From NCBI RefSeq assembly GCF_963675165.1, contig NC_087380.1:4145803-4209802 (forward strand): a stretch of 64,000 nucleotides of DNA, read 5' to 3'. A program made the position numbers and the translations under genes. How positions within the stretch are numbered: position 1 is the stretch's first letter; each line of letters opens with the position of its first letter. The DNA comes from Halichondria panicea. Lineage: Eukaryota > Porifera > Demospongiae > Suberitida > Halichondriidae. Shown here piece after piece: positions 3,950 through 48,300 of the stretch. A model generated the notes under the pieces. It was not told where the DNA came from. It ran no database searches and saw only the letters and a list, made by a program, of their open reading frames with translations.

Positions 3950-4560
3950 CTATGGTGTCCTACAGTTAGTGCCCGTGGTGTCTATGGTGTCCTACAGTGT
4001 CTATGGTGTCCTACAGTTTCTCAGTGGCGTTCAGTAGTGCCCGTGGTGTCTATGGTGTCCTAGTTTCTCAGCGGCGTTCAGTAGTGCCCATGGTGTCTAC
4101 GTTGTCCTACAGTTTCTCAGTGGCGGTCAGTAGTGCCCGTGGTGTCTACGGTGTCCTACAGTTTCTCAGTGGCGTTCAGTAGTGCCCGTGGTTTCTATGG
4201 TGTCCTATATAGTGTCTATGGTGTCTTACAGTTTCTCACTGGCGGTCAGTAGTGCCCGTGGTTTCTATGGTGTCCTAGGGTGTCTCTATGGCGTTCAATA
4301 GTGCCCGTGTTGTCTATGGTGTCCTATAGTGTCCATGGTGTGTCTATGGTGTCATACAGTTTCTGGTGTCCTACAGTTTCTCAGTGGCGTTCAGTAGTGC
4401 CCGTGTGTCTATGGTGTCCTAGTTTCTCAGCGGCGTTCAGTAGTGCCCATGCATGGTGTCTATGGTGTCCTACAGTTTCTCAGTGGCGTTCAGTAGTGCC
4501 CGTGGTGTCTATAGTGTCCTACAGTTTCTCAGTGGCGTTCGGTAGTGCCCGTGGTGTCTA
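3950..4560 (+). repeat. 49-bp minisatellite
   Basis: Tandem array with unit of about 49 bp containing CAGTAGTGCCCGTGGTGTCT, then ATGGTGTCCTACAG and TTTCTCAGTGGCGTT. Around a dozen imperfect copies are present, with truncated units in the first part and between 4260 and 4370. It stops abruptly where the reverse-transcriptase remnant begins. Open frames over it are spurious. Confidence 0.75.
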
Positions 4561-9800: not shown

Positions 9801-12800
9801 TCTTCCTTCGTGAGGGTCTGTCTAAGATGTAGCTGTTGAAAAAAGTGCTTCCATTTGCTCCACACCTGGGAATTGCTAGTAAATATTGCTGGAAGAAATC
9901 TGTAGGTCTTTCGAAAAGTTGTAAAGATTGGTAAAGTATGATCACAAAAGTCTCTAACTGGTCTCAATGGTTTATCACCTTCACTAATACATGGAAGGGC
10001 TTCCAACAAATTAATAAATGTTCTTGCTGTAAAATAACACTGCCTGGTTTCTTTTCTCTTGTACATATGTTCTTGAGAGTTTGCTTTGTTTGTTCGGAAG
10101 AGAACATCCCTGATGTGCTCGAGGTGTTCATACCGCTCTGTTTCATTCAAAGAATCAAAGAATTTAAATATATACTGTGAATAAATTCCTTCGCCAGTAA
10201 TGCTGTTGATTGCCAACTGTGCTGAGCCAATAGCAGTCCATGCACCAGAACAATGAAGAAATATGACATCACAGTGTTTAATCCACTTTTTGTACCCGAC
10301 AGTACTTGCAGACGTGTTCCACTTAAACACTGTTTTTCCTTGAACAGTACTGAATTCTCCATCAACATTCTCAAATAAAGGAAGGGACTTTATGTAATTG
10401 AGACTCTCTGGATCACTTCTGAAGTCAATTGTTGTAGCAAAGTCAAATATAACTTTCACCATTTCTTTGGTGACTAGTTTTGATAAGGACACTTCCTGGT
10501 TAAGGAAGTACAAGTTTTTGAGGACAGCTTTACGATCTTTTAAGCGAGGACATGGAATAGAAACACCCAATGGTAGTGCAATGAAGGGCATTTGAAGGGT
10601 AGAAAGTACATGGTATAGTTCAGACTCTTCAGCTGGAGTGATGGCTGGTTTTTCTCTCCCATCTGACGCTACTGATAGTGGATAGACAGGAAGCACTTTG
10701 CTTGATGTTGAATATAGGTGGCCTCTATTGGTTGGGATTAATGCCCATAGTTTTAACACTATGTTGTTCAGTTTTGATTTAAACGCAACATCGCCAGAAA
10801 AACATTTCCAAAGTTCTTTTAACTGGTTTTCAGACATGTATCGATCAAAATCTTGTACTCTAGATGCTTGTAGTTCAGGTGGAAGCTCAGAAGCTAAAAT
10901 TGTACTGACGAGCTGTTCATAGTCGGAGTTTTCAGCAAAATATTCAATGTTACAATTAGCTTTAAGTAGTTTTGGGTGTATGAACAGGTGCAGCATTGTT
11001 TTAAACAAACCAGAAAATTCAGATCTTAGCACCTTTTCATGCTTTTCAAAGTTTCTAAGAATACTATCAGCTGTAAGAAGAAGAGGATACCCATAAGGAT
11101 TGTTGTCTGGAAATACCCATCCAGTTATCTTCGTGTCTTTTTCCTTTGGTGCCTGAAGCAAATAGTCCGTGAACCGTCTGAATACTTCTGCTCGTTTGAA
11201 GATAGTACAGTCAATAGCACAGGGGAATGCATTCACACCTGTTTCAGTTTTGATTGCTTGTACATTGAACTTCTGGTAGTAAGCATAAACTGAGCTAGGG
11301 TTGGTTTCTTGTAGTTTTGTTGCCTTATCGTCGATAGCCTTGTTTAGATGACGTTTCAGCCTTGATGGTGCTGCAGTGAGCTGCATGCCAATGGCTTCAA
11401 GTAAAGGCCTAATGGACTTCCTTTCATAATCTCCCTCCACATATGAAGTAGGCGACCAAAAGTAAACTTGAGTGGAAGACAACTCACTTTTGATAGGACA
11501 CCAATTAATCTTTACTGCCTTGGTTTCAGCAGTCTCAGAGTTGTACGCAACAGACAGTACAGAGGAGTTATGAGTAACAAACTTGGTATACACACTCTCT
11601 GCTAACAACAGGTAACGTTTTTCCAATTTATCAGAGGAAGGGTGAGGGAATATGCTGTAGTACTTGTTGAGAGAATCAAGAGCATCATGAATTGATTTGA
11701 AAACATTTTTGGTTACATAGTACTGCTGAGCATGCTCAAGAAGGTTAGCATAAGATGAGGCTATGGCTTCAAAGATTTTTCTGTTCCATGCTGCTCTGTC
11801 ATCTTCATGACAGGAATCTGTTGAGTGCCACAAGTCTCTGCGATTGGAATCGAGGACAAAGTGCCCATTGATATGCACGGGTAGATTTGAATCCACTGGC
11901 AAAGGGAGAAAACAGAATACTTTTCCAGAGATTGACATTTTCCCCGGGTTTATTGCCTCACAAATAGGAGCTGCAATACCATGTCGTGGCTTTATGTTAC
12001 TAATGTATTTCCATGTTTGATGTTCATTTTCAATATCTCCAACCCCTTGTTGTATTAGCCAATTCTCTTTGACGTGTTGCTCAGCCCCTCCCCTCTTGTG
12101 TGTGACTGTGGAAATGGTAATAGGATAGCGTACCACTGTGGGTTGGGTGCAACTATCTTGTTTAAAGGCTGAGAGTGCATTATGGAGCTGAACACGAGAG
12201 ACTTGGGCACATTGATTTACCGTTGTGCGATAGTTGCTCAATGTGATCATTGTGTGAGATTTTTTTTCTATGACAAAAAAGCGAAGTTCTGTAATGTGGT
12301 TGAGGAAGAGCATAGCTTCTTTCATGCCAGGAGCCCAGTCTTTGAGATAAGAATGCATATCGTCTGCTTTTAGAGGCTTTGGGTTAGCGAATGTATCCTT
12401 TTTTAGGATCTTTGACATTGCTACCAGCTCAGGAGTGTGTCTAAGAGGAAAACGAAACAAAGATCCACCTTCTTGCAGCTCTGGCGGGCAATTTTCCAAC
12501 CTACTCTGGAGGTAAGCACCCTTCATATCACTGAATGTGTCCCAGAACCCATCCTTAACCAAATTGTCAAACCTTCTTCCAGGATCACTTGCAGTTGCTC
12601 CTGGAACATAGTGGCAGTGTGGATCCAGTATACACATGGTTTCTCCTCCAGTGATAAAACTTGGACAATCAGTGAGATGGTAAACTACATTGAAACCGAT
12701 GCCATACTGACCAATTGTCTCATCATCAGATCTCTTGCTACCTAGGCCAAGTTGCTGGATACCTTCTAGGTCCTTCTCTGAAAATTCGCTATCATTCCAA

Positions 12801-15800
12801 ACCAGAAGAGCTGGGCCCTGAAGCTTGCCCCAGGTTTCTGATAAGATACATTTTGCACCGTGAGTCCTTTTATCCAAAATAACATACATTTTAGTTGCCC
12901 CTGAGTCATCCGCATTCTGTAGCAGCTCTTTCAGGACTGTGATATCAAGAGGATAACCTTTTAAAATGTTTTGGATCCTGCGTGTAAGTTCCTCATGCTG
13001 ACCAAAAGGAGTGCCATTGAAATGTGTTTTGGCAGTTGTAGAAAATCTTTCAAGAACTTGTGTTCTAATAGGTACCACCCCGAATTTTGTAGCTACATCT
13101 CTTGCTAAATTCCCGTGCACATAAGTGTACTTAGTCTCCTTTGGGGCCCACTGTGCATCATTGAAGGACAATTCGCTAGCAGGATGCATGACGTAGTTCT
13201 CGTCAGGAAGCATGATTGATATATCCTTAGGAGCATCACTGCTTATAAGCAGGGAAAGCAGTTGATTGAACACATTCTGACATTCCTCACTGATTGGCTC
13301 ACTGCCAAATTGTTCCTTCATTTTAGCAAGAGCAATCTGAATATCTGACATAGTGAATTCCTCTTTTATATTCATATGCTTGGTGAGATATGTATGAAAT
13401 GAGAGGCTAGCCGGTAGAGGGTATAGATAGGGTCCATTCAAACTCCATTTTGTAGCAACAACACTAATGGTGATGAATTGTTCTCCCGTCCAAATGCATG
13501 CCAGTTCTCGTAAGCTCTGAACATCAGTGTTATCAGTGTTAGCCAGGATAGTATTAAAGAACTCATATATTTTGCGGCACATTTTATCTGTCAGTTGAAT
13601 TAGTTTCGTTGTACATTCTTGTAATGAAAACAGTTCAATCAATTTATTGAGCTGCAAGACAACCTCCTCAAAGGTTGGAGCACTTCTTATTCCTAGCAGC
13701 TGAATAGCATCTTCATCTATTGGTCCACATCCACCATCCTTTACGGAGGAATTGTTCACAAATATCGCTTGCGACCCTGACACCTCCACATTGATGTTAT
13801 CTGAGGGTGTAATAAACGGAATCATAAGATCTTCACCGCACATAAGTTGACGCTGTCCAGTCTCTTTCCATGGAAGAAAGTAGTCAGGTGGCTTAGTTAG
13901 CACAGGAAGAAAGGGGATCTTAGACAGACCAATGTCACCTTCTGTAGAAGCTGTACTTGCAGAAATGACTAAATAGGTTCTTGTCATTGCTCTCGTTGGA
14001 CTGCTCTGGTACAGTGTTGGCACAGAAGTTGCACGTTCCAAAAGCATGTTCCATGGGAGAATATTGTTAAGCATTCCGAGATTCTTTAGGCCTGCAGCAG
14101 ATAGTTCTCTCTGAACGAGCATATCCACAGGAAAAAGAGCATCAGATTCGTCAAATAGATCAGAAAACTTGGATTTTGGATCGATAATCTCATTGCACTT
14201 ACGCAAAATCTCTCCATGTGGGCAGCACGGAATCGATGGGAAAGTCTTAAAGAAATATCCTAAGTTACTACCACCTGGTCTATCAATGTTTGCCATGTAC
14301 TGCTCTAACATGTACTGGATGGCTTTATTCCTCTCAGTAAAGATGGATGCTAAACTGTCAATGCTTTGAAAGAAAAGGTCGATAAATTCTTTCTCACCCA
14401 CAGTGTAATCATCAAGATCGAAAAATATGTGATAGTTTTGCGGTAGATCCACTACAGGAACTTTTAGATGCTCAACAATTTTCAATACACACATAGGAGT
14501 AGATGAGTCTGTTGAAAGACAGAGAATTTTGGGTTCAAGGAATTTACTGTCAGTCAAATACAGCCATTGATTATCGCATGCAGAATAGAAGACTTGTTCC
14601 TCAGACATCAATGAGTAGAGTGTGTCAATCATATGCTCCCAAGGATTGCGCTGAGTTAGCATGTCTTTATCTGGCCATAAACAATGAAATACATATTCGG
14701 CTATATCTCCATTATTCATTAAGTCCTTCAGAGCTAGCAAATGTGCAAAGTAAGCTCTTGGAATTACCCCTTGCATTAGTGAAACATTCCAAGTGACTTC
14801 TCTGTCTGTAAGTGAGGTGGCTTCGTCTGAGGTCCAGATCCCCCTGCGATTATTGATCACAGCAAAGTTGCTACTTAAATGCACTGGTAGGCCAATCTTC
14901 TGAGAGAGGGGTAGGAAACAAAATATCTCTCCTCGGAATTTTGCATCTACACTGTAGCTACCAGGAGTGCCCAGTGGGCAGGAGACTGATGCAGTGAAGT
15001 ATTGTTGGGAGTAATCATCAGTCTCACTTTCTTGTGATACCAGCCAATGACAGCTGTTTGATTCATTAGAGAGAGAATCGAAGCAAGTTAGTTCTCTGAT
15101 CTCAGTACCAGCATGGAGTTGAATTGGTGCTTCAATACGCTCTCGAGTGATCTTCAACAAAATCTCTGGCGTGCTTTGTCCATGGCTGATCGTTTGGAAT
15201 GTAATAGTTCTCACGTGCTGTAGAAAAAGCAATAGAGTCGAGCTACTGTTCTTAATGGCAGATATTAGGTCCTGGACTATTAAATTTGAATAGCAGGTAG
15301 AACTAAGCTCACTAGGGTGTGTCCTGAATGGAAGTCTAAATATTGTCCCTTTGTAATCAGATCGATCAAATCCAAACAAGCCATCATAAGGTGAGAGCTG
15401 ACGCGAATTGGCAATGAACTTACTCGTGAAAAGAACTTTCTTGCCTGGCCGAGAAAAATTCTTTATATCTTTTCTTAGGTAGGATAGTGTTGGATCAAAG
15501 ATATATAGTTTGTCTCGACTAACAAATGACGGTACATCTGTCATGTGGTACACTGAGCAAAAACCGATTCCAAACTTGCCTATCTTTAACACTTTGTTGG
15601 CCTTGGTTGCTCCAGCTAGCTTTGTGATGTTAGTAAAATCATCTTCAGAAAAACACTTGTTGTTATGAACAATTAATGCAGGACCATGAGCTTCTGCCAT
15701 TCCTGAGAAAAAAAGTTTATTTGTTTCATGCTGCCTAGTGTCATAGCAAATGTTCACTTCCGTAGCCTCTGCATCATCAGCGTTCTGCAGTAGTTCCTTG

Positions 15801-18800
15801 ATAATAGTGAGTCCGTCTTTGTAGTCTCGGAGGATATTCTTCAATCGAGTGGTGAGTGGTTCGTGTTGACCAGCATCTTCAAATGCGTCCTCAGAAATAT
15901 CCAAAAACTCTGCCAATGGAACTGCACCAAGATTATGTGCCATGCTAGCAGAAATGTGGTTATGCACACATTGGTATGAGTCCTTTTCTTCTGACGATTG
16001 CAGGTAATCCTTGAGGAATTCATTGTCCGTGTACACAACCTCTGAAACTTGAACTAGCTGAGGCAATTTAGACTCCGTTTCTACTGGTACCAGAACATCT
16101 TCTGGCATGACTTCGTCAGGAACGTTACTATTTCCATCGTTTGTGAGCCAGTTTAGAATGTTCATGATCATACTCCAGGCATCTGATTGTTCAATAGCAT
16201 TAGCTTGTACATCGTCCTTGATCATTTTGAGAACGGAAACGATCTGGGCTTGACTAACAGTCTCTGCGACTCTAGAAGCTGAGCCAAAGAGTGTTGAGTA
16301 TTGAGACAGGATGTCGGGTAGAACGTAAATGTATGGCTCAAGGTCACGCTTGAAGGTGGAGTTTTGTTTTAAAGCTACTAAATCTGGTGCTATAAACTTC
16401 TTCTCTTTCTTGATATAAATCCACTCTGTAATTGAGTACAACGAAGCAAGATAGGAGACACCTCGACTATTCATGTAGTCATACACTTGAAGAACAAGCG
16501 AGTTCATAACATCTGCAGAGAGCTGATCCTTGTGCGAGAGTATCTCTTTATAGTGAGCGACCACGTTCTGTGAGAAATTGTTAGAGTCAGCTGGTAACAT
16601 ATTGGCAATTAGATCGGCAACTGCAGGGCACACAATGTAGACCTGTGAGCCCACTAGGCAGGGAATAGTGTTTTCCGTTGAAGGTGATAAAACCATCGAA
16701 TTGCTCAGAGAGATAAAATGTGAGTTGAGGCCGTGTCCTTTCCATGAAATCTCTTCAGGATAACCAGACGGCTTATCACTGAGAATTGGGAGCCAGCTCC
16801 AGCTAGTAGCTAGATAGTTGAGAGCAGTCGAGAAGGTATAGCTTTGATAATGATCATTAGCTACTACATACCTTCCGCCAGTTTGGTTATAAAAAGTAGG
16901 TGTGCTTATGTATTTAAGAACTGCCTTGGCCCGGCTCAGCTTTAAGCTGTCAACACGTTGTGGATTTGAGCTGAAAGAACAACTGACGGAGTAAATAATG
17001 TCAAGGACTTGTTGTGGGGTAACAGCAACACAGAGACCACATGTTCTTAAAGTTTGAACTCTTTCTTTCGTGTTGTAAGGAGCCTGAGGGAATACATCTT
17101 CTCCGCTATACAGAGCCAAAATATCAGCATCAAAAGGAGTGAATAGTTCAGAAGGACTCTTTCGTCCATTAGTTGTTTTGACGAATTGCAAGCTCTGCAG
17201 GTAACTGTCCATATTGTACTCTCTGGAGTTGAGGACTTGGAACATGTCCAATACTTCAGGCATTAATTTGTCGATGAGGTGGTCAGGGAAAGTCTTGTTT
17301 TTAAGGAGCGGAAACACATGATTGACAAGAAGTCTGAAATCAGATAGAAACGAGATACGTAGGGATGTCAATAGTTGCAGCTGATAGTAGTTTTCCCTGG
17401 ACAGAATAATTAGGTTTGAAGGCAGGTTTGCAACATTGAAAGCACATCTGTTAGGTTCTCCTATAACCTGTCTTGCTACTGATTTCGATTTTGTTGTGTT
17501 CACAGAAAAAAGTTTTTCTAATGAGTTTGAAGCAGATGAGAATATGCAAATGTTCTTTAAGACATTAGTTCTCATCATAGAAGGAGTATATGTGCTAGAT
17601 ACAAGAAACATTCTCATGCTATCAGCTTCCGGTGCTGTGAAGGCAACTCGATTGTAATTTGACGTTGATCCTATGGCATCCAACAAGTTGTTTGCGTCTA
17701 CCTGCTTTATGTACGATGAAAGTTGCTTGTGCTGTATATAGCTAAATTCACTTTGTAGGCAAACTCTGATGTTCATTTTGTAGATAGCAGAGAGCAAATC
17801 GCTAGAGCAAGACGAATACCTGCGGACATAAATCACATCCTGCACGCTGCTAAGGGGAGCAAGGCAAAAGCTTCTTGTTGAGCTGGAGGTTGAGATGTAG
17901 CAAGGAACTAGAATCTGCTTAGCAAAATGGCGTAGATTTTTCTCTTGCAGCCAATTCCAGAACGTCTGAAGCCAAGTGGAGGGAATCTGAGAGTGGGGCA
18001 TAGACACTAGACTGTTTCTGCTTGAGGGTAGAGCCTGGGAGAGGAGACTAGCAACATCTCTCTCAGTGAGGAGCCGGAGCTTTGTCTGTTGACTATCAGC
18101 CACAGAATATAGACCTTGTTGAAGCTTTGTATAATCTGATACGTCGACAAGTAAGTGGTCCAAGTTAGGGAGCAGGGATCGTGGATAATCATCTGAGCAA
18201 AGGAAAACTGTCTGTTGTTCGAAAGTCGTATCAAAGTTAGTGAAGCTACCATTTGCTAGGGGTAGAAGATTCAAACCTTGGAGATCGTTGTAGCAACTGT
18301 CGGAGAGGCAGTACGTCAACATCACCCTCTTGCCAATTGGGTCAATGTTAGAATAACTTTCAGAGTGAGTCCGAAGTTTGGAGCGAACTAACATGGGAGA
18401 TACCTTTGTGACACCAACTGTAGCGTGATACATGGCTCTCCATATGTTTGAAGGGACTTCGACTAGATACACAGAAGAATTGGTGAGAAATCGTTTCACA
18501 ATGGAGGGAAGACTGCTGTCTTCACTGATAAAGGTTGCTTGAGAGATGAGAATCCAGTTCCCAACAACTTCAATTGTGTTGATCTTCTCAGTCCAAACAA
18601 CTGCTTGCTGAAACACTTCACTGAACAAAGGATGGAGAATCTCAGAAAACTGGTTGTTTACAATATTCACATCAGGCCAGGCATTGTAGAACTGATCATG
18701 AGAAATGTACTTTTTAGCCTCTACTAGAAGCATAGCATAACAAGGTGGGAGGAGCTGACTAACAAGAATCTTGTTCCAATTTGCTGTAGGATCGTTTCTT

Positions 18801-21800
18801 CTCTCAATTCCCGGCCACTTTAGAGTACGTCGCTCGTCGTTCAGCCCAAATGTTCCATTGACATGAACCGGTAGTCCAGATGTAGCCTCCATTGGCATAG
18901 GAAGGAAACAAAATATTCGACCCCCAACAGAACTAGTACCTAGCTCCAAAACTGTGCCGACCCAAGGAAATGTACACTGTTTGGCTGCAGCTGCTTGTAC
19001 TGTAGAGTCCTCTGATCCGACACTGTTAGCTATCACCCAATTGCTCTGGCCAGCTTGGTTCTTCCTATGACTGTTGTCAGTCACAATTACAGAGAAGGTA
19101 GCTGTGAACGAAATTACACGGGAAATCGAGTATGGCTGTTCAGAATGAGCTTGCCGAAGTTGCTGCATGAACAATTTACGCTTGGAAGTAACTGATGCTA
19201 AACTAGCTGGACTTATTTCCACACAGAATGATATGCTGTGCTGACCACTCTGTGAGATGTGCACTACTTGGATCTTGCATACTGACTTCAAAAACAGAAG
19301 CAAATACTTGGCCTCCTCTCTAAGAGCATCGAGGAGTAGTTGTAGCTTTTGAGTGTTGTATATTTTGTCCGAGAGACTGGATGCTTTTGTGCGTAATGGC
19401 AGTCGGAAAATAGTTCGTTGATATTGGGCTGAATTTTTATCGAAACCGGCCAAGCCATGGAGTGAGGTAATAAAATCAGATGACTGGTCAATAAGGCTAG
19501 CCAAACTGAATGCCTGCCCAACTTCACCTTTCCAAACCTTTTCTTGAGGTTCAAAACAAGCTAAGCGATTTCCACTTACAATCATTGGGAGGTCTAAAAC
19601 AGAGAGAATTTTAGCATATATAAAATAAATTAAAATTATTACAGTCATTTAGTGTATACCAGATGCACACAACATGATGTAATTGCATGGTTATGAGAAT
19701 ATAGCCAAAATGCGCAGACCAAAATGCTCAAGAGCAAGTACCAAGATTAGTTCTTTTATACGAACGTAGCTAAAATAACTCATTTTGTCTTACCATGCAT
19801 GCATGAAAGCAAAATAGGCTGCATGGTTAAGGCACAAGTTGAAGCTTATAAATTATACTCCGACTAGAATGAAAAGTTAAAAGTTGCTCGGATTGGCCGG
19901 GGGAAACACCAAAATACGTGGAAACAAGAAATCCGGCGAGAGCATAACTCCAATCTGTCACAAGTCTATAATTCATGTACCGTCGTTTGAAATGATTTAG
20001 TATAATTTTTGGCTGGTAATTTTCCACATACTATTAATTTTAGTGGTTTTCTCGGCCATTCAATCCTAGTAATTGTTCACATTGCTGGCCTAAGACTATA
20101 AGGGTGATGTTCAATTCCTTACCCTACATACATACAGTCCATGCATGCATTTCGGGGGACAATGATTATTTTACAGTGCATTTCCATAAGGATTGTCTTG
20201 TGATGATGTTCCCTATAATTAATACAGTGTACATAATGTTGAGCACAGTTTATCCTGACATGGAAGTGATGATGTAGTGGAAGCTGGTATATGGACCTGG
20301 AACACATGCAGTCTATAATTCAGGGGCATAGGCAGGCGAGGTGGTTTGGGTGCTTGAGCACCCCCCGTGCCTGACTCTATAATTATTAAAGCTTACTTGA
20401 TGAAAGCACCGCGGGTGCTGATGCCTCGGTGGAGGTGCCAAAGCTACATCACATAAAACTACTAATAGCTAGCTTTTATCATAGAACTGTTCTATCCATG
20501 CTTTTATACACACATTTATCATGATGAACATTTTTGCATGCAATCACAGGGAAACTCAAATAGTGGGTAATGATCGACCATGATTGTTGTTAAAAACGAT
20601 CGATGCCAAAAGTTAAATTAATGGCTGCAAGTCAGCAGAGCCTTGTAGCTCTTTTCTCACTCTTGCAGCTACCAATAGCTAGCGTTATAGTGCAGAGCTA
20701 ACTACTAAGTAGAGTAGTAACACTCGATGAACAAGGTTTGCTACGGACTCTTCTGAAAAAGCTGCAATGGCATTCTAAGTAAGCAAAACTATAGGCATAA
20801 CACGAGAACGAAGTTTTATTTTGCAAATCCACAAATAGCATGCCAAGAAAACATGACTAGAAGCCTATAGAAACTCTTACTTGCACTTCATTGATCCTTG
20901 AGCAGCTGAAATAGTCTACACACACACACACAGACACACTACCGTATACCTCGCTTGCGCATGCGCACCGAGGCATAAAAATCCGGTTGAGCTCAGCACT
21001 CAAGATCTTGTTAGCTGCATACTGAAATAGCTATTCACCTAAGACATACTAGAGTTAGTAGCTGATCTATATACTACACGAGATAATCATTGCTCTCATT
21101 AATGAGCAAAACAATCAGCAGCTGCCAGTTCTATACTATCACACCTATATCTACTACCTGTGTATGGCTATTCATATTTTACAGCTTGTACGTAAACCAC
21201 TGGACAGTGCTTTGCTTAGCTACACCTCTGTACTCATGCGGTTGCGAACACTCAGCTCCACCCTCAGTTTTATCAAACTGCATGAGGGTACATGGAGCTG
21301 ATTATTTGGTGGGGTTGCAACCCCAGCCCTAGATCCACCCCTGCTATCAATTGGCTAAGGGCCATGCTGCATGGAATAATATTTTTGCATGTGCGCTGTT
21401 GAAAAAAATCATAAAAATGTGTGTGGTTAGCGTTGTAATTAAAAAAAGACGATATAATGCACATAATACTCATAATAGAGATAATTATATACTACTATAC
21501 CTATAGGCTTCCTTACATACAATGGTCACCGCTGTATGCTCTGCGTAGTTAAGGCCCGGGTCTGGCTGTAAATACCAAAATTTAACACTATGTTCATACT
21601 GCTGTATTATTTGCAATATACAGTGTATGCTGCATCAAAATGATCCAAAATGAAGCTCAATGTTTTCTTTTTCCAAAAAATTAATTAGCTTAATTCAATT
21701 ATGCTAATTAGCCCCAAAAATGGTGATGACGTCATGCCACTTTTAATAAGAAGAACTACAAATGCGGCCATGAAGATGCTAAGATCAAGCTTCAAAAACA

Positions 21801-24800
21801 AGGCTAGATGAACTTATCATTGCTAGGTACTAATATCCGGCGGGGGAAGAGTAGGAGTTACTGTATTCTTGAGATACACAGCATAGCCTACCTCTAGAGT
21901 GGCTGTCAGAGCTAAAGAAGCCAGTATAGCTAAGGCAGTTTTGCACATGTTGACTTCCCCTGCTGGAAATATAATCATGACAACCTACTCTATCTTTTGA
22001 GGGCCTAAACAACTAGTCTTACCTTGTACAAGTCCACCGCATTTGTTGCTAAAGATTCTGTACAATAGTTCCAGCAGCTAGCTAAGCAAGTACCTTGACT
22101 TCTTCTTGAAGCACGTGACATCAATTGCAATGAATAACATTAATAATGGTTATGAATCTCATTAACAATAATCTACATTAAATGTTGCTTATCAGTGCCT
22201 GACCCAGGCCTTAACTACACAGAGTGTAAAACGATCACAGTTCATTCCAAGACGACACTAATTTTTAAACTGGTTACAGTACAACCCCAATACACGTCAA
22301 GCCACGCCATTTACAACCAACCTAAAATGCATACAGCTACGTATCAATACCAAGGGTTGCACGTGTTATGGGGTCAACATCAAAATAGCGGTGTATCCTG
22401 AAAAAAAAATTTGAAAATATACCACTCTAAGCACCTTGGGTATTGTATTCTCTCAATTAAACGCACATGTACTTGTTTAGTTACGGTACGTTTAATCGAG
22501 CGTTTGCAACATCCTTTGAGTGCTTTTATTTATAGACATTACTCGAATAGTGGCGCATGCTCTACATTCATGTGCTGATTGCATGGAGCTAGCCCAAAAC
22601 AATTTGCCCTTTACCATGCATGCCAATTGGTAAGTTTATCTATCTGGTTAGATCTATATAGCCTTCCACGCTGAAGGTAGTGTGCTGAAAAGCACATCAG
22701 TAAGAGAGACGCCAGCTGTGCTGATAGAAAGCATGCACACGAATGGAACAGAAAGAAAAACGAATCTTTGAGTAATCATAATAATACGGAGGCCAATTTG
22801 AATACTAAGTTCACCTAATCGATCCTCAAAAGCTACCTGTTTTAATAAATGCGCATATTCGATAAGGCCAGAATAGATATTTGAGCTATCAAATGCACTG
22901 CACAATATTTTAATCGAGAAACTAAAGTACCTACATTTTGCAACGAGAACAAGTAGTTACAAACCAGTGGTTATGTGTAACACTTGACTATAACGAACTC
23001 ACCTGTGAGATGATAGACAGAGTTGAATCCAATCCCAAACCTTCCAACTTTGAAGGGGTCCTCCGCTTTGATACTCTGCTGCAAGCTCTGTATTCCTTCC
23101 CAGTCTTCTTCTGTAAAGCAGGCATCATTGGCAGCTACAAGAGCAGGGCCTTGGAATATGGCCAAGTCAGGATGAGGGAGGTTGGAAGTGCTATGCTGTC
23201 TTTCATCAACATAGAACCACACTGTTGTAGCTCCAGCATCATCGGCATTCTGGATCATCTCCTACACAAGCATGTTATGATCATTTCAAGGGTTATAATT
23301 ATACAAAGGGTTACTTTACATGGTGCTTCCACAAAACTTATAAGTTATAGGACTGGTACTTTCATTCCCAAATATAATCACCAAGCTTTACACGTACTCA
23401 ATTACGTACTACGAGACTGTACTGAACATACATTTTCCTTGTTTTGTTTCGCTCAAAAGGATTACTGGAGGAGCTTAATGGAAAAGTGGCATGAATACCA
23501 TCATTTGGACATCTGGTGGATACCAATGAACCACGTCTCAATGTCTTACAGTTGCCCACCAAAGTAGCAAGCTATATACTGCTAGGCTATGCTGAAGCGT
23601 TAGCTGCTTCTGCTAAATATCCCATATATAGCTTTCCAACCACGTGGGCACTTTTATGCGCATGTGCGAGGGCGTTTGCTATGAAATTGGCCAATATTCT
23701 CATACAGATAATTACGATAATAATCGACACTGCATGTATTAGTGTATACATGTATAGTAGCATCACAATTTGAGCAAGGAGGGGTGGATACGCATTGAGG
23801 TCAAAGTTTATAATGTTGCTATCTGTCAGTATACTACCTTCTATTCTGACATTGTGCCATGAAAATAGTTTTTTGAATGTCAGCAACCGTTCTATGTGTC
23901 GAAAAGGCGTCAACTAAGTCTATCAAAATGCCCCCCACAGAAAAATATTCAGAATGAAGCACAGCAAGTGCAACCATTAGTGTACAGGCTGACCCACATG
24001 CAAAAAGGCATTCGAGCTATCATGCACACATGTTATTATGCCTCGGTGCATGCGCAAGCGAGGTATACGGTAGTGTGTTTGTGTGTCTGTGTGTGTGTGT
24101 ATAGACTGCTATACACAGCTGCTCAAGGATTAATGAAGCTCAAGTAAGATAGTCATGTTTTCTTGGATTTTAATTCGTGGATTTGCAAAATAATGCTTTG
24201 TTCTCTGAGTTATGCCTAATTTTGTTTACTTGGAATGCCATTCCAGCCTTTTTAGAAGAGTGCATAGCAAAACTTGTCCATGGAGTGTTGCTACTCTACT
24301 CAGTACTTAGCTCTGCACTAGAACGCCATACTTGCCCGTGAATATCATTATGCATGATGCTTACAGTAACGTGCAGCTAGCTAAAGTATTGTTGTGTTTG
24401 CGGTCACCCCAATCATGTTCACAACTACTCAAGCCTAACCACTCGCTGACTCAGCTAAACGAGCTTCTACATTGGATTTTGGACCAAGCGTTCAGATTAA
24501 CGAACGGCTGTTCTTGAGGCTAGTGCGGCCATTCGTTTTAGACTTGGACTTTTAGTCGATCGTTTTTAACAACAATCATAGTTAATCATTACCCACTCCT
24601 TGGGTTTCTCTGCATGCAAAATTATAACTTCTGTTGCCACTGTGCACTAAATAAAAGTAAAAACTTTCACCTTTACTTGAATGGTGAATTAGTTTTAACT
24701 TCTTTTGTGCACTAATAACTTTTACCCTTTTGATTTAGAAAATAAGTTAACTTTTATACGAGTCATCAGCACCCGCAGTGCTTTCATTGCCAGCAGTTTT

Positions 24801-27010: not shown

Positions 27011-30000
27011 CTAGAATCGAAGTTTGCAGACAATAATTATAAGTACTGAGATATTACGTCCCTTGAGAACAATTTGGGTATAAATCACCTCAGCTTTATA
27101 ATGAGTATTCCCACAGCGTAGGTCGATGACTCCTTGACTCTTCAGAGCATGTTCTTGATCAGCTTTTAGCGGAAAGATATCACTTGTTATGAACTGGATC
27201 GGTAATGAAAATGTGAGCTCGACACAGCCATCATCAATTTTACAAAGCTTTAAAACACCTTCATTTAAATGCAAGATTGAGCATAGATTCCACTCGAATA
27301 GCTTCAGTCGACTCACTTCACATTCATCGTAAGTAGAATCAAGCTTTACAATCAGATTTTCTCCGGAGCCTGAACTAATATTTCCTTTCACTAGTCGCCT
27401 CCTAGCATACTTAACAAAATTGGTTTTGTAAAGTTTCATACTGTCTTTATCCTTGTCCGTTCCTAATTGGTTTGTTATCTGCTCAATAATATCATAGTCG
27501 AAGAAGGAAAAATAGTCACCAATAATTCGCCAAACTTCTGGGATAGTTGAGCATCGATCTAGATTATTTCTTTGAGCTCTAAAAACACATTGATTTCCTC
27601 CACAGAATACTTTCTTTAGAGAGTTAAGGCCCATCAAGCACGCAACTACAGATTCTTTTGTAACTACAGATTCTTTTGTAATTCTACGAGTTTCAAGTGA
27701 AGAACATAGTTGAGACACTAGAGCGTTGAAATTCCTTTCCATCCATATCGAATCTCCTTCTAACATTGTAGTGTCTGGATCTGCAAGAAAATATGTAAGC
27801 GCACATACTATGTTACGATTGTACATGGCTGATGATAAAAGTATCAAAATTATGTATCAGTTAGACCACGTGCATGCACAGTATAATTATGCCTCGAGGC
27901 GTAGCCGTCGAGGGATATGGTATAAAGCCAGATGAGGTATGAAACGAGTACCTCGATTATAGGCTTGATTAGGCTAAGTCACGTGTAAAATTCATCAGCA
28001 AATTATTGTTGCATGACCTAATTAACTCAATTTTAGCCTAATCGAGGTACTCATGTCAGAACTCCTCTGGGGTAAAGCTGACTGTGTCAGTGTTGTGTGT
28101 GTGTGTGTGTGTGTGTATTCCAGCCGTAACTGCTCAGCTTCTATAGGCTTCTAGCCACGTTCTCTTGGATTCGTGGAATCTTAAAGTTTGTGCGAACAGA
28201 TGATGCTATGAAAGATTCTGTAACAGCCGTCACTGTGAGACTGTAAGTCAAACTAGACATAACTCGAGAATCCGCGAATCAAATCCAAGAGAACGTGGCT
28301 AGAAGCCTATATATAGAAGCTGTTAGTTTTCGTCGCATTGCAACCGTTGAGCAGTTATTACAGCTGGAATACACACACAGACAGACAGACACTCATGCAG
28401 ACACACACTCAGCTTTACCGTAGGCTACGTCTCGAGCCATAACTACAGATTTTGCTATGCAAGAGTCTAAAAACTGAGACTTTGATGGCCTTTAACTGGC
28501 TTTAGTTTGCAAATCCACGAGTCAAAATCCAAGGCTAGAGGCCTATAGAAGCTATTACTTGCACCTGCATTGCTACGGTAGAGCAGTTACACGCACGCAC
28601 ACACACTACCGTATACCTCGGTGCACCACTGAGGTATAATTATTATTTTGACTTTTATTTCGAAATTTCCGTTAATAACTGTTACTGCATGCATGTACGC
28701 TTAATTAGATAATCCTATGCATGGCGTATATAGCTTACCACATGATGTATCACCTCCATTTGTGCTTCGAGGTCTCTACATGTGCATAATTATGTGCATA
28801 TGCCGTATGAGTTATAACACTGCACGAGTATAAATTTCTATTCTCACTATAATTATACTGAACAGCAACATGGTACTGGACTTGGACTTTTGGATGAATG
28901 CTCTTATTATACTAAATGCGTGATCTATAATATCACTGTTATGTAATTGCATGTGTATGTATATACAGACATTAGACTGCACACAGGCAGCAAAATAATT
29001 ATCTGTATAATGATTTAAAAGGGCATTGATTTTACCTCAAGTTCCTCTCTCGCACAACCTATAATTATGTGTGCATGCACGGTATAGTGAAAAGTTAGTA
29101 TATACATTATATAGAGAGGCCTATAGTCAAAATTAGACGCATGCATGCATACATGAAACGCTTTAGTCACCCCCACCCCCGGTCACTGGATCCTTAAGGC
29201 CTGTCCACACTCCACACTAGACACTCAATGCGCATTGGGTGCGCATTGAGTGTCTATATATTGTGTACAGGCCTATTAGATAGAGTGACCTCTCGGACAA
29301 TAAAATTATTGGTCCTAGGATTCAGTGACCCCCCTCCAATAGAAAGATACTATGAGCTATATGAACTATAGATCTATACTTGACAGTCAGGCTAATAGCA
29401 GCAGTTCAGACACGCACTATATAATTATATATAATACATAATATATATATATATAATTCAACAACAAACACGTTCCATGCAGGCCTCCATGACAATGACA
29501 ATGCATGCATGGCCTTTGCAGAAATCCAGTCTGAGCTGCCTGACTGTCGCTGCACAGTAGTACTCTCTTTCTGTTATTTGGGGGGTCACTGCATCCGACA
29601 CGGGTGTCAGAGGATTTATTGGCCCCCATGGAGTCACTGTATATTATAGGAATCAGTGCTATAACCCCCCATAATATACTGAGTCCTTATATTATAATTA
29701 TGCCCTACACGCCAGTATGGATCCCACGACAGAAGGGAGTCACCGCGGATTTTATAATAGAATTTCACTGAATCCTAGCACCCTGTACTGTGTCCGGGAT
29801 CACAAACCCAGTGAATCTGATCCAGTCACTGAGTGATCCTACGACACTATGCATGCTGTTGCATTGAATACAATGTAGCCACTTACTTTCAATGAATACT
29901 TTCTCTATCTCCACAGCTACATCATTTCTCTTCACTGTTGAGTGCCTGAGAGCAGTACACACGTCTCCCCAAGTTAGAGTACCGGACTGTAGTCGAAGAG

Positions 30001-30351
30001 CTAGGACTTCACGCAGGCACACATCATTGTCACCATGGTACGTTTCCCGATAGTTGGTTAAGTCGGTATACTCAAGTTTCAGCGCTAGTCCCAAGTTGAA
30101 CCAGTTCGGACTAGCACTCCGTGCCTTCTCGTACACCTCAAGTATGTCAGAGAGAGTTAGAACAGTATCTGCATCACAATGACAATAGTATAATTATATT
30201 GTATTATGTGAACCAATAATAACTTAACCATAGTATTATTTTATTCAACAGCAAATTGAAACGTACCCAGTCCAGGTCCAGGGTTTATCTCCACATCTCC
30301 AGCCAATAATAGGAGATGAAAGAGAGAGAAAAGTAATACAACTATCATCAT
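27011..30351 (-). CDS. Death-domain protein with N-terminal 2A leader
   Basis: Exons 30351-30267, 30168-29887 and 27780-27011 join in phase (G|AT, A|AT) to 378 residues. Residues 1-17 are a hydrophobic, signal-like leader; 18-26 read GDVEINPGP, the canonical D(V/I)ExNPGP 2A motif, at which ribosomes skip the bond between Gly25 and Pro26. Residues about 31-118 form a death domain, with WFNLGLALKLEYTDL, a central CLREVLALRLQ helix and LTWGDVCTALRH. Exon 3 carries a conserved domain (WRIIGDYFSFFDYDIIEQI, then YARRRL and LFEWNLCSIL) that I associate with sponge death-domain proteins; its function is unknown. Skipping would free the leader and leave a cytosolic death-domain protein; failure to skip could send the whole chain to the secretory route. 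An in-frame 18-bp duplication lies at 27644-27679. The stop in exon 3 may instead be intron if a donor near 27040 is used. Confidence 0.8.
28071..28419. repeat. Palindromic relative of repeat family A
   Basis: GGTAAAGCTG at the left matches CAGCTTTACC at the right. Inside are inverted ATTCCAGC...GTAACTGCTCA and CTTCTAGCCACGTTCTCTTG arms around a short centre. It lies in intron 2 of the death-domain gene. A partial reverse copy of family A follows at about 28490-28640. Confidence 0.6.
28641..29886. other. Intron sequence without recognisable genes
   Basis: Rest of intron 2 of the death-domain gene. It contains a short perfect palindrome (about 29219-29262, GACACTCAATGCGCATTGGG and inverse) and several copies of a motif like GTCACTG next to C-rich runs. 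No exon is supported. Confidence 0.45.
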
Positions 30352-30998
30352 GATCACATTTGAAGGGGGGCTATAAAAACAAACTGTGTGACTGTGATCA
30401 ATTCACGATTGATCAACAATTTGTCTTTCTTTGCCGGCAAGGTGTTCGTTGTAATAGTTACAAGATGTATAACTGTGTTCCTTGATTTGGTGCTTCTAGT
30501 GACTTTAATGCACGATATAGTCTATACTGGTAACATCTTCTGCCACGATCTTTGATACTGGGCATAAATATACAGTTTGAAAGCAACACCATTGCCTAGA
30601 CTAGACTAGATATATAAATTATAGATCTATAATTACTATATAGATAGCCATTAATTTTCATTACCGTGTAAGTCTATCTGATGATCCAGGGAGCTTTACG
30701 TGGCTGCCATCCCTGTGATATCAACTCCACACTTATTTAGAGTCCACAGCATGCACTAGCCTAGCCTAGCCCATTCATGGCCACATATCTATCCACCCCT
30801 TTTTGTGGGTAAATACATTGACAGGAAATGCATCTCTTATAACATCTTTTGGATCCCTGTTTTACAGTATTCATAAAGGAAGCAAACTAGCCTTAACAAC
30901 CATGGTCAATAGACTTTGCATGAAAGCAAAAAATGTCAAGTGAAAGTGCTTTGTTTGCAGAGCCGGAGGAAGCAAATATGAAGTGGTCAGGCCAGACT

Positions 30999-42480: not shown

Positions 42481-44600
42481 ATTTTTATTTTTTTTTTATT
42501 TATTTTTTTATTTTTTTTATAATAATTCTGCAAAATGCATGGATACACTAGTAGCATATTACGCTAACCTAATGTGTGCCCTGTATATATTACTTACAAT
42601 AGCGAGTACAAATTAAAAATAAAGACTAATATTATACTAATGCAAGTGACAGAGTACATTTCTCTTAAATGACAAAATCGATGTACTTTCCTGCAGCTCC
42701 AGTGGTAATTCATTCCACACAGATATTGCTTTTGGGAAAAAAGAGTTCGCATATGCATTTGTTCTGCAAATTGGTCTTTCAAACTGTATATTTTTTGTGC
42801 TTCTTAGATTGAGAGGGCATACTCTTCTTTCCAGTGGTGGATCAGGGAAATTAAAGTTACCATTTATTACCTGGTAAAGGTATGATAGCTTCAGGTACAA
42901 TCTTCTTGTGGAAAGGGACGGTAGGTCCACAGTATCTAATAGGGAGTCGTAGTCCCTATTCCAAAGTTTTGTGCAGATTTTAAGGGCAAACTTTTGTACT
43001 TTTTCTATTTTGTGAGAATTTGTTTTTTGGTGTGGATCCCAAACAGGGGCAGCATATTCCAGTTTTGATCTCACAAGTGAGATGTAGAGTTGTCTTAAAC
43101 ATTCTAGTGACGAGTGGCCATAGAACTGTCGGTAAATTATACCAACCTGCTTGCAGGCATTTCTGCACATTCCTTCTATGTGTTTTGACCATGAGAGGTC
43201 GTGAGAGATCCACACGCCAAGGTACTTATAGTGGTCAACTTTAAGTAGGGGACGTCCACTGATATTGAGACACATGTTGGGAAGTGGTGGGCTGATATAG
43301 TCATGTATTTACACTTGCTTTGGTTAAACAAGAGTACATTTCTTTCAGACCATGCTTGGAGTTGATCAATATCTCCTTGCAATTTTATATAATCTTCAGG
43401 AGATTGAATAGGATGGTAAAGAAGAAGATCATCAGCATAGAGCAAGAGACTTCCTTCATTTTGATGTAGATCGATGTCATTTATATAGATTAGGAAAAGA
43501 AGAGGTCCCAGCACCGAACCCTGGGGAACTCCTGACACAACCTCCGAGATATTTGATGACTTTCCATTTATTATGACATATTGTGATCTATTCCTGAGGT
43601 AGCTTGCTACCCAAGATACCAGATGGGGATCTAGGTTCAGATTGGTTAGCTTACTCATCAATATCGAGTGAGGAACCTTATCAAATGCTTTTTTGAAATC
43701 AAAAAAGACAGCACATACACTCTGACCATCTTCAAGCAGTTTGTGCCAATTGTGCACTGCCATAAGCAGCGCACCTGTGGTGGATTTTCCTTTAGTGAAA
43801 CCCCATTGTTTATTCGAGAGGAAAGATATATCTTTTAGATGTTCTAAGATTTTACTATACATATGTTTTTCCAGGAGCTTTACAAGGATGGAAAGTAGCG
43901 ATATAGGGCGATAGTTTAAGGGATCAGACTTGTCGTTTAATTTGGGTATTGGAGTGACATGAGCCAATTTCCAGTCGTATGGCAGTTCACAGTTTTTTAT
44001 CGATATATTGAAAAGCATTGTTATACTTGGGGTGATCGTTTCAGCAGTATAGCCTTCAGCATTTCGGCAGAGATTCCGTCAGGACCATTTGCTTTTGTGG
44101 TGTCTAGATTTGATAACAGGTTGAATACTTCATCTTCTGTGCAGCGTAAGTTCTCAGGTAAGTCTCTTGTTGGTTGTTTAAAGGAATTTGGGTCAAGAGG
44201 AGGAAGTGAATGGTTGAAATTTGCATAAAACAGCTGTTTGTTAAGGACCTGGGCCTTTTCTTCATCCTGTTCGATTTTGCAGCCATTTACTACAAGACAT
44301 GGGATAGAGCTATCTGATTTTCTCAGGTATTTCAGAGCTGTCCAAAATTTTTTTGACTGAGGCTTGAGGGTGCTAAAGAAATCTTGTTTACTCCGTCTGA
44401 GAGTGGTCACAACCTTATTTCTGATCTGTTTGTAGGTTGCAAAATCAGAGGGTTTGTTGTATTTTCTGGCAAGTCTGTAGTAATAGTTTCTCTTTTTGAT
44501 ATCTCTTATTATATTTTTCGTTAGCCAAGGAAGATTCTTTCGGGTTGCGATTTCTGCTGTGGGAATACAATTTCTCATAGTAGTCATGAATACATTCTTC
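42481..44600 (-). mobile_element. 5'-truncated, frameshifted LINE (jockey/CR1-like ORF2)
   Basis: Read on the minus strand, the copy starts in the region between endonuclease and RT (44587 on). The RT domain shows NYRPISLL, DFKKAFDKV, GVPQGSVLGPLLFLIYIND and LLLYADDLLLY, the YADD catalytic box. The C-terminal thumb and tail (KYLGVWIS, KLEYAAPVWDPHQ) end at 42637. An A-rich 3' tail is seen as T/A at 42481-42525. Two frameshifts, near 44040 and near 43270, break the reading frame, and the endonuclease domain is missing. The clade assignment is by eye. No target-site duplication was found. Confidence 0.85.
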
Positions 44601-45351: not shown

Positions 45352-48300
45352 CTACGAGAAATACCAAGCGCTAAATGCTACAACACAAGCAACCCCTATC
45401 AACAGGAATGTTCCAGTACTCCAGCATGATTTTGTAGCAGGCTTGCGAACAGGCTGCTTAGTGGGCTTTTCGGGAATCGTTTCAACATTTGGCTTTTTCT
45501 CAGGGTCTGGTTTTTTCTCGGGAGTTGATTCTTTTTTCACTGGCTTTTCAATCGGCTGTTCAATCGGCTGTTCAATTGGCTGTTCAGTTTCCACAGTAGG
45601 GATAACTTCAGGCTTTTTCTCGGGCTTAGGCTCAGGCTTTCCATAGATTAAATCAAGGAGCTTGTCAACAACTTCAGCTACATTCATGCCGTCCTTGGCA
45701 CTGGTCTCAAAATACTCTATGCCCAGTGACTGGGCCAGCTCCATGCCTTGCTCTTTGGTGATCACTCTGCTCTCAGTCAGATCAGACTTGTTTCCCACTA
45801 GAATTACTTCAGGATTATCCAAATTCGCTTCTTTGATTCGGGTCATCCTGTATTAAGTGTGAGTATTATGTGAAAGGCTGTGTTTATAGATACCGGATCT
45901 ATCGGACATACTTAACATGTCATCCTGCAGTACATATGATTATTTTAATATGCAGCGATGCATGCAATTGATAATTATCGTCCCAAAGGGCCCATGCATC
46001 ATTTAATGTATGTATATATACCGTATTACTAGAATGTTTTGCGAGCATCAAACGTTAGCGAACTTTGCGATCAATTTGCAACAATAAAATCCGCAAAACC
46101 TAAATGATTACTACTAATTCACACGATCCTTGCCAGAACGCAATAGTTAGATCCCAAAGGGTAAAATTTTCTGCTGATTTGGCTCATTCGCAAAGGTTTT
46201 TCACCAGCAAAATATTCTAGTAATCAGTAACGGTATATATGAACAGGGTCAAATGCAGTATTATATATTTGATGAATGCATGGCCTCACTTTCCCTCAGC
46301 ATCCTCTAGTGCGTCTTTAGCTGTGAGGTCCATTATGATAATGAATCCATTAGATCCTCTGAAGTAGGCATTTACTATTGCTTGATAACGTTCTTGGCCA
46401 GCAGTATCCCACAACTGAAGTGCGTATGTTTTACCACCCCTGCAATGAAAAATCAACGACTTTATTGCCATAAAGATATATTATGAGGATCCAGAAATCA
46501 GTATTAAGACCATGCATGTACAGGCATGCATGTATGTGCAAGCAATTCTCATAATAATATCTCTACCACGCATGCATGGCTATACACAATGCATGCGTGG
46601 TATGGAATACTATATAAAAAAATACATTTTATTTATGGCATTGACGATATTGCTGTGTCAGCACCTTTTGAGGGTGAGGGAGTGGTCTACGTTTACAGGG
46701 GAACTCCCTCTGGCCTCACCGCTAACAACCCTCAGGTCAGTAATACGTATTCCACTTGTACACAGAAGACAACCATGCAGAATGTTGTACAAATTATGTG
46801 AAAATCGGTATAATTATGAACATGCATGGAAACCTAACTGAAGCTCAACTGGCTTTAAACAATAGTAGCAACTAGCAGGAGCAATGAAACGGAAAATCAA
46901 TTTGAAGGCTATATGACAAGGATTTGAAAACGGCTGTGGTGCACTGGGACTATATATATAGGATCATGCACAATAGAGCCAGAAAATAAACCTGGAATAC
47001 AAATAAAGTACATTAATTATAGAGCTCCACAATTGCTGTAAGTAGTGCGCATAATTTATGTGCAATGCCAATGACGTGCCTCATTATAGCCACGTTTAGC
47101 TTGCTAGCTGTATAGCCAACGTGCAAGGTATAAGCTTCTCATCTCTTGCTCGCTTTAATTCAAAATCTCCCATTATAAATCACACACATGCACCAGCGAA
47201 CTAGTATAGACATGCCTCAAACCTATAAAGTGTCAATGCATGAGGAATTAACAGTATTGAGGTGTTGGTTTACAAGAAAGTTAGCAACCATGGAGCTTAT
47301 GAGCTAGACATTTGATCGATAATTGGCTAATGAAACACTTCTTTGCTAAAGACTTTCGCAGTATTATACGTCACCCACCATAGATTTAAGGAAAGGAAAG
47401 GGATTGGAAAGGGCAGCAAATCACGTGCCAAACGTATATATAGACTTTATGCTTGTGGTAGAAGTCTTTAGCGCGCTTCGCTTTTTGATGTGGTGCCTGT
47501 AATAACTCAGCTGCTCGAAAAACTATGCTATAAGAGACGATCATTCAGGCAGGTAAAAACAGTCTTTACCAGTGCCTCGTGCTTTTATTGAGGGAAATTT
47601 CGAAGTAAGCCGCCTCTTATAGCTGTTTTTGTTTTAATTTTCTACTATACTCAGGATACTAAATCAGTACCTTTGGGCATAGACATGCTGTTACTGTTAA
47701 TGCATAAGGAAGCTTTTATTATAGCACTAAATCTCTTTTCCTACTTATTAGACGTGGACTGGTAATAATTATATACGGATTGGCTTGCAGAAAAAGACCA
47801 TCTCTTGATCTCACCCGAGACCCAAGACACAGTTATATGTTCTTCGAGAGTTTTGCCCTGACTGGCAAACTATCTTTATACCACACTTACGTCACCTAGT
47901 ATTATTGATCTCATTGGTCAACAGCTGTAAGATATATAGCATATAGCCCCAGGCATGCACAGTTTTTCAAGTTGTTTTTTTAGTTTTTTCATTTGTTCAA
48001 GAAAGTAAGCAAAGAGAAAAGAGCCATGCTTGACGGTACTAAGACTCAAAGCGAAAGCAAAAACACGGAAGGTGTTCTCCAACAAGATGGCTACGCTTCC
48101 ATGGGTCCATGGGCGCGGTTTAGATACATTTTATCCAAGAAGAGCTTGCAACTCCAGTAAGGGACGTCAAATGGTCAACGCTTGGACTAAGGAAGCTCTT
48201 AAGCATCTGTAGGAGTCGACGTGTTGCTCAACTAGCTCTTTGACAGCTGCAAAATCTTTGCTCTTTTTTGCAGCCTGGTTTGCATTGTGGATTGAATTGT

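Follow-up and report, generated by a model that had tools for sequence, protein, structure and literature searches.

A StopGo/2A-type leader exon in front of a death-domain gene of the sponge Halichondria panicea, and its relatives across the genome

On the minus strand of a stretch of 64,000 nucleotides from the demosponge Halichondria panicea (called the window here, and meaning the whole stretch: positions 4145803-4209802 of contig C4, NC_087380.1 of assembly GCF_963675165.1) lies a predicted gene whose first exon encodes a short hydrophobic leader fused directly to a StopGo/2A core, the kind of motif at which a ribosome may skip one peptide bond. We analysed this gene against the whole genome, 131 Mb in 39 contigs (contigs are labelled C1, C2 and so on, and loci are given L numbers). 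The gene is predicted to have three exons (Table 1), and by translation the joined frame is open for 378 codons and then one stop. The ATG of exon 1 is at 30351, and codons 1-26 read MMIVVLLFSLFHLLLLAGDVEINPGP, followed by GGA CTG and one G. The original prediction, made from the letters of the window, had described a 26-codon hydrophobic leader directly fused to GDVEINPGP, a core ending two codons ahead of the splice site, and a phase-correct intron to exon 2. All of this was borne out on the minus strand, at exactly the coordinates given: the predicted intron is GT-AG and of phase 1, and the frame stays open through the join. The core was also rightly called canonical, as GDVEINPGP fits (D/G/C/N)(V/I)ExNPGP; NPGP is found once in the six frames of the window.

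The short-leader type to which this gene belongs has three copies, two on C4 and one on C2. Just upstream of the leader the window copy carries an ATG-TGA start-stop pair, where both paralogues have CTG in place of the ATG, so that the window copy alone may be translationally dampened. At the other end, conservation of exon 3 with its relatives stops at a donor after 27089 (GAG/GTGATT in the window and its C4 paralogue, GAG/GTACGT in L095 and CAG/GTAAAT in L080, the slash marking the junction), and the window gene may therefore continue past exon 3. This donor of the window is weak, and the stop 25 codons further on may be the true end of the gene.

What does the second exon encode? It had been predicted to be a death domain, and this holds at the level of the family, while exon 2 of the window by itself has no Pfam Death match. 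PF00531 was matched by 11 of 17 aligned family members at E up to 1 (best 0.0023, all under the curated cutoff), and the profile of the death-domain family found in PDB the 2of5 complex death domain (best E=0.0085) and FADD. The AlphaFold model of the domain has six helices at low confidence (mean pLDDT 55.8), and a fold search with this low-confidence model returned death domains as its top 11 PDB matches (probability 0.84-1.00, E 0.19-1.5, none below 0.001). These weak matches converge, by which exon 2 is taken as a probable death domain at family level. For exon 3, the AlphaFold model was unusable (pLDDT 34), and its profile gave 0 matches to PDB at E up to 5.

The same core recurs throughout the genome. 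Degenerate patterns for D(V/I/M)ExNPGP found 116 sites genome-wide (71+45) and the reversed-pattern controls found 0, by which a chance origin of the motif was rejected. Gly precedes Asp at 115 of the 116, and allowing some other first-position residues adds 4 sites (120 in total, control 0). It had been suggested to look in the same genome for other exons encoding a hydrophobic leader plus NPGP, and the outcome is thus strongly positive. For reading, 83 of the 116 sites were fetched, 77 of them (from 100 listed, with 10 of the 41 C14 sites among them) together with the preceding 220 and the following 900 bases, and 6 in longer stretches. At 44 of the 77 a death domain follows downstream on the same strand at E<=1e-3, and at 0 on the opposite strand; at 43 of these 44 loci the 15 bases behind the core contain a GTR, the first of which is in phase 1, and the remaining locus has none. 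Over the whole genome, a scored death-domain exon of the window family follows on the same strand at a distance of up to 3 kb at 63 of the 116 sites (58 of them within 158 bp), and in the upstream control such an exon lies within 3 kb upstream of the core at 4 sites. Genome totals of this kind are lower bounds, since only the best candidates were scored (150 of 577 for the death domain, 102 of 265 for NACHT).

Such recurrence bears on the gene model itself. A possible acceptor, TATAG, lies 5′ of the leader in all three short-leader copies, so that exon 1 may have an upstream exon, and one might suspect that exon 1 belongs elsewhere and is not spliced to the death domain at all. Yet the order, the spacing and the phase recur across the loci counted above, and a gene model wrong in this way is hardly credible to us. 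In the GLG, C14, C5/C10, C2, C1 CARD-like and C11:4571341 families, one to three codons and a further base separate the final Pro from the donor; in the C6/C10/C12 direct fusions the core is not followed by an intron. The leader exon thus behaves genome-wide as the separable module that the original prediction took it for.

By class, 104 of the 116 sites are host immune-type, 8 are retrotransposon-type and 4 are unknown, these classes being assigned from leader family or neighbouring domains with a part of the loci read individually, and for 9 direct-fusion (C6/C10/C12), 11 CARD-like (C2, one unit read) and 2 C7 sites largely from resemblance by eye. The domains behind the immune-type leaders are various (Table 1). 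These architectures were called from exons downstream on the same strand, with NACHT, ankyrin, dsrm, Death and astacin above Pfam cutoffs, and the exon set of each sister locus is presumed to belong to one transcript. L090 is a possible double-stranded RNA (dsRNA) sensor adaptor. The label CARD-like was given by eye, as a PDB search of such a region returned 0 matches and Pfam 0 families for the L082 and L093 regions. A shared degron starting with Pro was considered and rejected, the residues after the core varying by family (Gly-Leu, Thr-Leu, Gln/Arg-Met, Gly-Ser, Glu-Thr). Two side observations may be added. The stretch C14:0.50-1.63 Mb holds 41 cores, many of them followed by a death domain and also by NACHT where this was scored, and is a candidate array of NLR expansion. 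Further, L086 and L087 (C16), L089 (C17) and L039 (C6) are open reading frames of unknown family whose N-terminal part holds a canonical StopGo core; L086, L087 and L089, the three that were scanned, have no Pfam match above cutoff.

How do the leaders themselves look? In most leader families read they are longer than that of the window, which is short and signal-like, and consist of a tail and one or more membrane-type segments, then the core. A WRARIG tail is followed by one membrane-type segment in C11, C4:6781794, C15 and C13 and by two segments in C5 and C10, and the C14 and C2 leaders have a different first segment (LGWRGSAL) upstream of the second; within the window, no WRARIG tail was found upstream of the leader. 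The same tail fronts different domain sets (TRADD-N-like/ankyrin, NACHT), which fits exon shuffling. In 8 of 8 representatives, with segment borders set by hand, the N side of the segment carries a higher charge than the C side, and the charge that follows the segment is negative, from which an N-in/C-out topology is predicted. The hydrophobicity and charge of the window leader likewise fit a signal function, as a prediction from scales. Over 17 residues, immune-type leaders have a median hydrophobicity of 2.44 (n=20) vs 0.82 for the retrotransposon-type (n=8; p=3e-5), and in the last ten residues the two types are alike (p=0.27), both comparisons being made on hand-picked representatives with hydrophobicity and insertion scales entered by hand.

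The likeness in the last ten residues suits a simpler idea, that the leader merely removes itself: the hydrophobic run would be the upstream part that StopGo needs, without any targeting, and the purpose would be a protein started with Pro or a lower output. In the same direction point immune-type leaders that are too polar for a membrane (L043, L046, L047) and mutations of leucines near the core, which cut recoding in the sea urchin leader (PMC4981915). Against this, immune-type leaders are more hydrophobic over 17 residues than those of retrotransposons, and in several families there are, in addition, conserved tails and another membrane-type segment, neither of which StopGo needs; we therefore hold self-removal alone to be unlikely, at perhaps one chance in several.

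Might the exon instead be a captured piece of a 2A-bearing non-LTR (long terminal repeat) retrotransposon, with no role for the host? Elements in this genome do carry the same core, in the same N-terminal position as the PHD-type class named in PMC4981915, where urchin 2A-like sequences fall into the same two classes. PHD, endonuclease or reverse transcriptase was confirmed at 5 of the 8 retrotransposon-type sites: after the core come PHD and endonuclease/exonuclease in L004, L020 and L061, PHD in L008, and PHD, endonuclease and reverse transcriptase in L096; L006 starts as L004 does, and L007 and L088 look related by eye. The PHD-type elements (L004, L006, L008, L020, L061, L041/L096) differ from the immune-type leaders, however, in lacking an intron after the core, in their lower 17-residue hydrophobicity and in the PHD, endonuclease or reverse transcriptase that follows. 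At 5 of these 6 sites the core runs into PHD in frame, and the sixth (L041/L096) is frame-broken, whereas in immune-type leaders that are spliced a donor of phase 1 comes after only a few codons and the runs are more hydrophobic; moreover, immune-type tails were not seen upstream of the elements, and the core is intact across tens of loci. For the window exon itself, retrotransposon identity was rejected, since no PHD, endonuclease or reverse transcriptase follows the core, and a phase-1 donor and then a death domain are found instead. A captured piece without host role is thus very improbable, while an origin of the leader exon by capture in the deep past is possible.

Is the core kept by the genes that carry it? 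As an unbiased test, the genome was searched with three leaders cut before the core, so that loci were not picked by the motif. In the merged result of 76 loci, the canonical core directly follows the leader in 72, and the four exceptions are two N-variant cores and two decayed cores (L118, L119) in leaders with stops or frameshifts. N at the first position lies within an extended 2A motif that has been called active (PMC12846837). The WRARIG tail in turn was found at 34 places (35 pattern matches, one being dropped as its letters do not encode WRARIG; reversed control 6), and a canonical core lies within 600 bp at 29 of them. Four of the other five were read and are all broken by frameshift or stop (L118, L119, L133, L134; the first two are the same broken copies as in the leader-only count), and the fifth is followed, after about 1.6 kb, by a death domain with an in-frame stop. 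In C5-type leaders the ratio of amino-acid-changing to silent differences (pN/pS) is 0.16-0.20 in the core vs 0.48-0.55 in the hydrophobic part and 0.46 in the tail. Comparing the copies of the short-leader type, three bases are lost in frame and the last base differs in exon 1 of the C4 copy. From the 72 of 76 leader-anchored loci, the core appears to be retained by selection in the sister families.

Given the anatomy, the phase, the recurrence, the retention of the core and the downstream domains seen in the genome, how would splicing, skipping, targeting and function be predicted to proceed? The interpretation that we consider probable is that StopGo yields a cytosolic adaptor or sensor of immunity apart from the membrane or signal peptide encoded ahead of it, exon 1 being a portable translation-control exon. 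The nascent leader ending in NPG would make the ribosome stall and would leave it with no stop codon having been read, and translation would restart at the Pro. The main product would be a cytosolic protein that starts with Pro-Gly-Leu-Asp and continues with the death domain and then the TRADD-N-like domain. Such a protein would belong to the immune adaptors of the death-domain/TRADD-N class in sponges, and the leader would be freed as a hydrophobic peptide of 25 residues. The ribosome exit tunnel holds 30-40 residues, and residues that influence 2A map within 30 of the site (PMC2978324); the window leader would thus be wholly inside the ribosome at the skip choice, before the signal recognition particle can bind. 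A minority that does not skip would present an N-terminus of signal type and be drawn into the secretory route. In the sister families, one mRNA would code for two proteins, a small one of the membrane and a sensor in the cytosol, and the freed membrane modules may have a function of their own. The first segment of two-segment leaders could already sit in the translocon, so that engagement of the endoplasmic reticulum (ER) could tune the skip ratio there; in artificial constructs, translocon engagement of upstream sequence inhibited skipping (PMC2978324).

It had also been proposed that one mRNA could yield two products, a cytosolic and a secretory or membrane form of the death-domain protein, whose ratio might act as a switch in innate signalling. 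Translation of 30168-29887 gives no in-frame ATG in exon 2, and with this first exon a cytosolic death domain would therefore arise only by skipping, so that this part of the proposal is supported. Two working forms, on the other hand, seem less likely than a cytosolic working form and a diverted unskipped fraction: judging by how its charges are distributed, the protein made without skipping would end up with the C-terminus outside the cytosol, where the death domain could not meet cytosolic partners, and the skipped cytosolic protein is for this reason thought to be the working form.

The motif might also be inactive, the gene then making a secreted or membrane-anchored death-domain protein. 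Upstream context is known to decide 2A activity, and chimeric 2A sequences are often inactive (PMC12846837), a point which also counts against the StopGo interpretation; and a survey of sponge NLRs reads transmembrane segments as those of putative membrane-bound NLRs (PMC12909245). An inactive motif is not readily reconciled, however, with the finding that 72 of the 76 leader loci retain the core and that it has decayed in those broken copies that were read, nor with the charge pattern, which would put death or NACHT domains outside the cytosol. The one assayed urchin leader of this design, of 26 amino acids, is active, with about 80% skipping in vitro, and its recoding-dead mutant went to the Golgi in HeLa cells (PMC4981915). 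We accordingly regard an inactive motif as rather improbable.

Several further observations weigh against StopGo separation of a signal or membrane leader from an immune protein. The window leader has only 17 residues before the core, and the polar leaders L043, L046 and L047 mentioned above are immune-type and not membrane-like. PF20694 (TRADD-N) reaches E=0.13 on exon 3 of the window and 0.0077 on its best member (L080), all below cutoff. As for the core, pN of the C5-type is biased low, because the loci were picked by the motif and changes at its fixed positions are invisible; for the C14 and GLG sets, indels and the small number of changes make pN/pS unreliable; and between exon 1 of the window and that of C2, 4 of 4 differences are amino-acid-changing, none of them at an invariant core residue. 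Exon 3 of the window and its nearest paralogue give dN/dS 1.4 on 24 changes, so that a copy may be relaxed. Furthermore, a canonical core is absent from the 3 kb upstream of 87 of the 150 scored death-domain exons, and of the 102 scored NACHT exons 14 have one in the 10 kb upstream and 4 in the 10 kb downstream, which leaves 88 without an upstream core; the leader is thus optional. Among 20 of the 87 core-less death-domain loci, read 600 bp upstream, two near-cores were met, both GNVEANPGP, and 8 of the other 18 have a hydrophobic run in some frame upstream, so that hydrophobicity alone is not specific.

The arrangement resembles SpNLR2A of the sea urchin, in which a 26-residue N-terminal hydrophobic leader fused to D(V/I)ExNPGP stands before intracellular immune receptors, with the same two-outcome logic; it was described for NLRs, 14 of 87 NCBI entries having the 26-amino-acid form and 85 of 241 any 2A-like sequence (Roulston et al. 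2016, PMC4981915). Unlike SpNLR2A, the module also fronts death-domain/TRADD-N-like, ankyrin, dsRNA-binding and astacin exons here, and many leaders have extra tails and membrane-type segments and end near a phase-1 exon border. Pfam finds no NACHT in exon 2 or 3 of the window gene, which is in this respect not attached to an NLR as SpNLR2A is. Of the precedents named in the original prediction, that of the sea urchin is thus published, while the report from sponge was not found: the literature searched gave no report of StopGo leaders in sponge or on death-domain/TRADD-N proteins, though Rao et al. 2025 (a survey of eukaryotic 2A, outside the search) and Odon et al. 2013 may contain some. In Amphimedon, 357 NCOA6-clade TRADD-N proteins, a very large expansion, have as their majority plan 1-3 death-type domains at the N-terminus, then TRADD-N and a variable end (PMC8195603). 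The window gene would follow this order, with a TRADD-N match below the Pfam cutoff; the available text of that account contains no NPGP, 2A-like or signal peptide. The putative membrane-bound NLRs of sponges (PMC12909245) likewise combine a transmembrane segment with a NACHT protein. At four NACHT loci here (L079, L085, L093, L094), in contrast, a StopGo core directly follows the hydrophobic segment, and NACHT receptors of such a design may therefore not stay membrane-bound; the available text of that 2026 paper has no match for 2A-like, ribosom- or skipping. The kind, then, is known from sea urchin NLRs, and what is new here is the breadth of architectures, the membrane modules and the portability of the exon.

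Other features of the window are listed at the end of Table 1. A copy of the sacsin-type gene also follows the C4 paralogue of the death-domain gene, a recurrence explained by joint segmental duplication, and in those stretches of C11 and C3 that were read, queries with sacsin gave no match; a giant fusion of the death-domain gene with the downstream sacsin gene is no more than a possibility. The Ras-family GTPase has, by eye, a linker rich in proline, lysine and glutamate and a hydrophobic tail with no prenylation motif, as if tail-anchored.

Table 1. Features of the window gene, domain sets at sister loci, and other features of the window (positions count from the first letter of the window)
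Feature	Position or locus	Strand	Remarks
Exon 1	30267..30351	-	26-amino-acid leader with StopGo core, then Gly-Leu and first base of the following codon; sequence and translation
Hydrophobic run MMIVVLLFSLFHLLLLA, 17 amino acids	30301..30351	-	maximum 17-residue Kyte-Doolittle mean 2.93
StopGo/2A core GDVEINPGP	30274..30300	-	predicted skipped bond: Gly (30279-30277) / Pro (30276-30274)
Intron 1 (predicted), phase 1, GT-AG	30169..30266	-	donor GTACGT at 30266; acceptor AG 30170-30169
Exon 2, probable death domain	29887..30168	-	94-residue helical domain; then donor GTAAGT
Intron 2 (predicted), phase 1, GT-AG	27781..29886	-	sequence
Exon 3, helical region and TRADD-N-like region	27011..27780	-	end is TAG 27013-27011, or donor after 27089 if there are more exons
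ATG-TGA start-stop pair	30354..30359	-	ends two bases upstream of leader ATG
Death-domain exon of window family, then NACHT	L079 (C14 array)		above Pfam cutoff
Two Death domains, then NACHT	L085		Death 2.1e-15; above Pfam cutoff
CARD-like exon (by eye), then NACHT	L093		NACHT above Pfam cutoff
Two death-type exons (by eye), then NACHT	L094		NACHT above Pfam cutoff
Death-domain/TRADD-N-like gene, then ankyrin repeats	L080		ankyrin above Pfam cutoff
Leader-core, death domain, then dsRNA-binding domain	L090 (C16:4371402)	same strand	dsrm 1.8e-16
Astacin protease	L091		above Pfam cutoff
Death-type exons, then GTPase/Roc-like exon	L092		below cutoff
Direct fusion without intron, then kinase fragment	L083		E=0.037, below cutoff
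Sacsin-type gene	6857-19648 and about 22974-23261	-	SACS 1.5e-168, HEPN 5.5e-9; ATPase-like start in separate exon (by eye)
Ras-family small GTPase, end of gene	45355-45852	-	PF00071 1.4e-14
Long tandem repeat	1604-3676		translates to variants of NHGTMEPWNCGTMELW in several frames
Reverse-transcriptase piece	43179-44078	-	PF00078 5.9e-36
Reverse-transcriptase piece	4515-4961	+	PF00078 0.0032, below cutoff

StopGo is said to be rarely used in cellular genes, the sea urchin NLRs being cited as an example in a 2026 study (PMC12846837). Against this stated rarity stand, in one animal genome, 116 cores, of which 104 are assigned to the host immune type, with the retrotransposon copies as a built-in control, and a skip trick known mainly from viruses may be routine in the defence genes of this animal. 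Could StopGo even be a general control device of intracellular immunity in the sponge? Modules would have been shuffled before some 100 death-domain, CARD-like, NACHT, ankyrin and dsRNA-binding genes, the skip ratio would set the free sensor, and the 'membrane-bound NLRs' of sponges would largely be a read-through artefact; we put this forward as a tentative idea, conceivable and on the doubtful side. If it is true, each mRNA would give a membrane mini-protein and a cytosolic sensor, in a ratio tied to translocon engagement, as in the artificial constructs, and, as proposed, to the state of translation factors. The dose of the sensor would then depend on how well translation and the ER, both targets of infection, are working. 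What is opened to test in this way is the partial skipping of a peptide bond as a source of dual products, the meaning of membrane segments in surveys of sponge NLRs, and whether the state of translation may set the supply of immune sensors.

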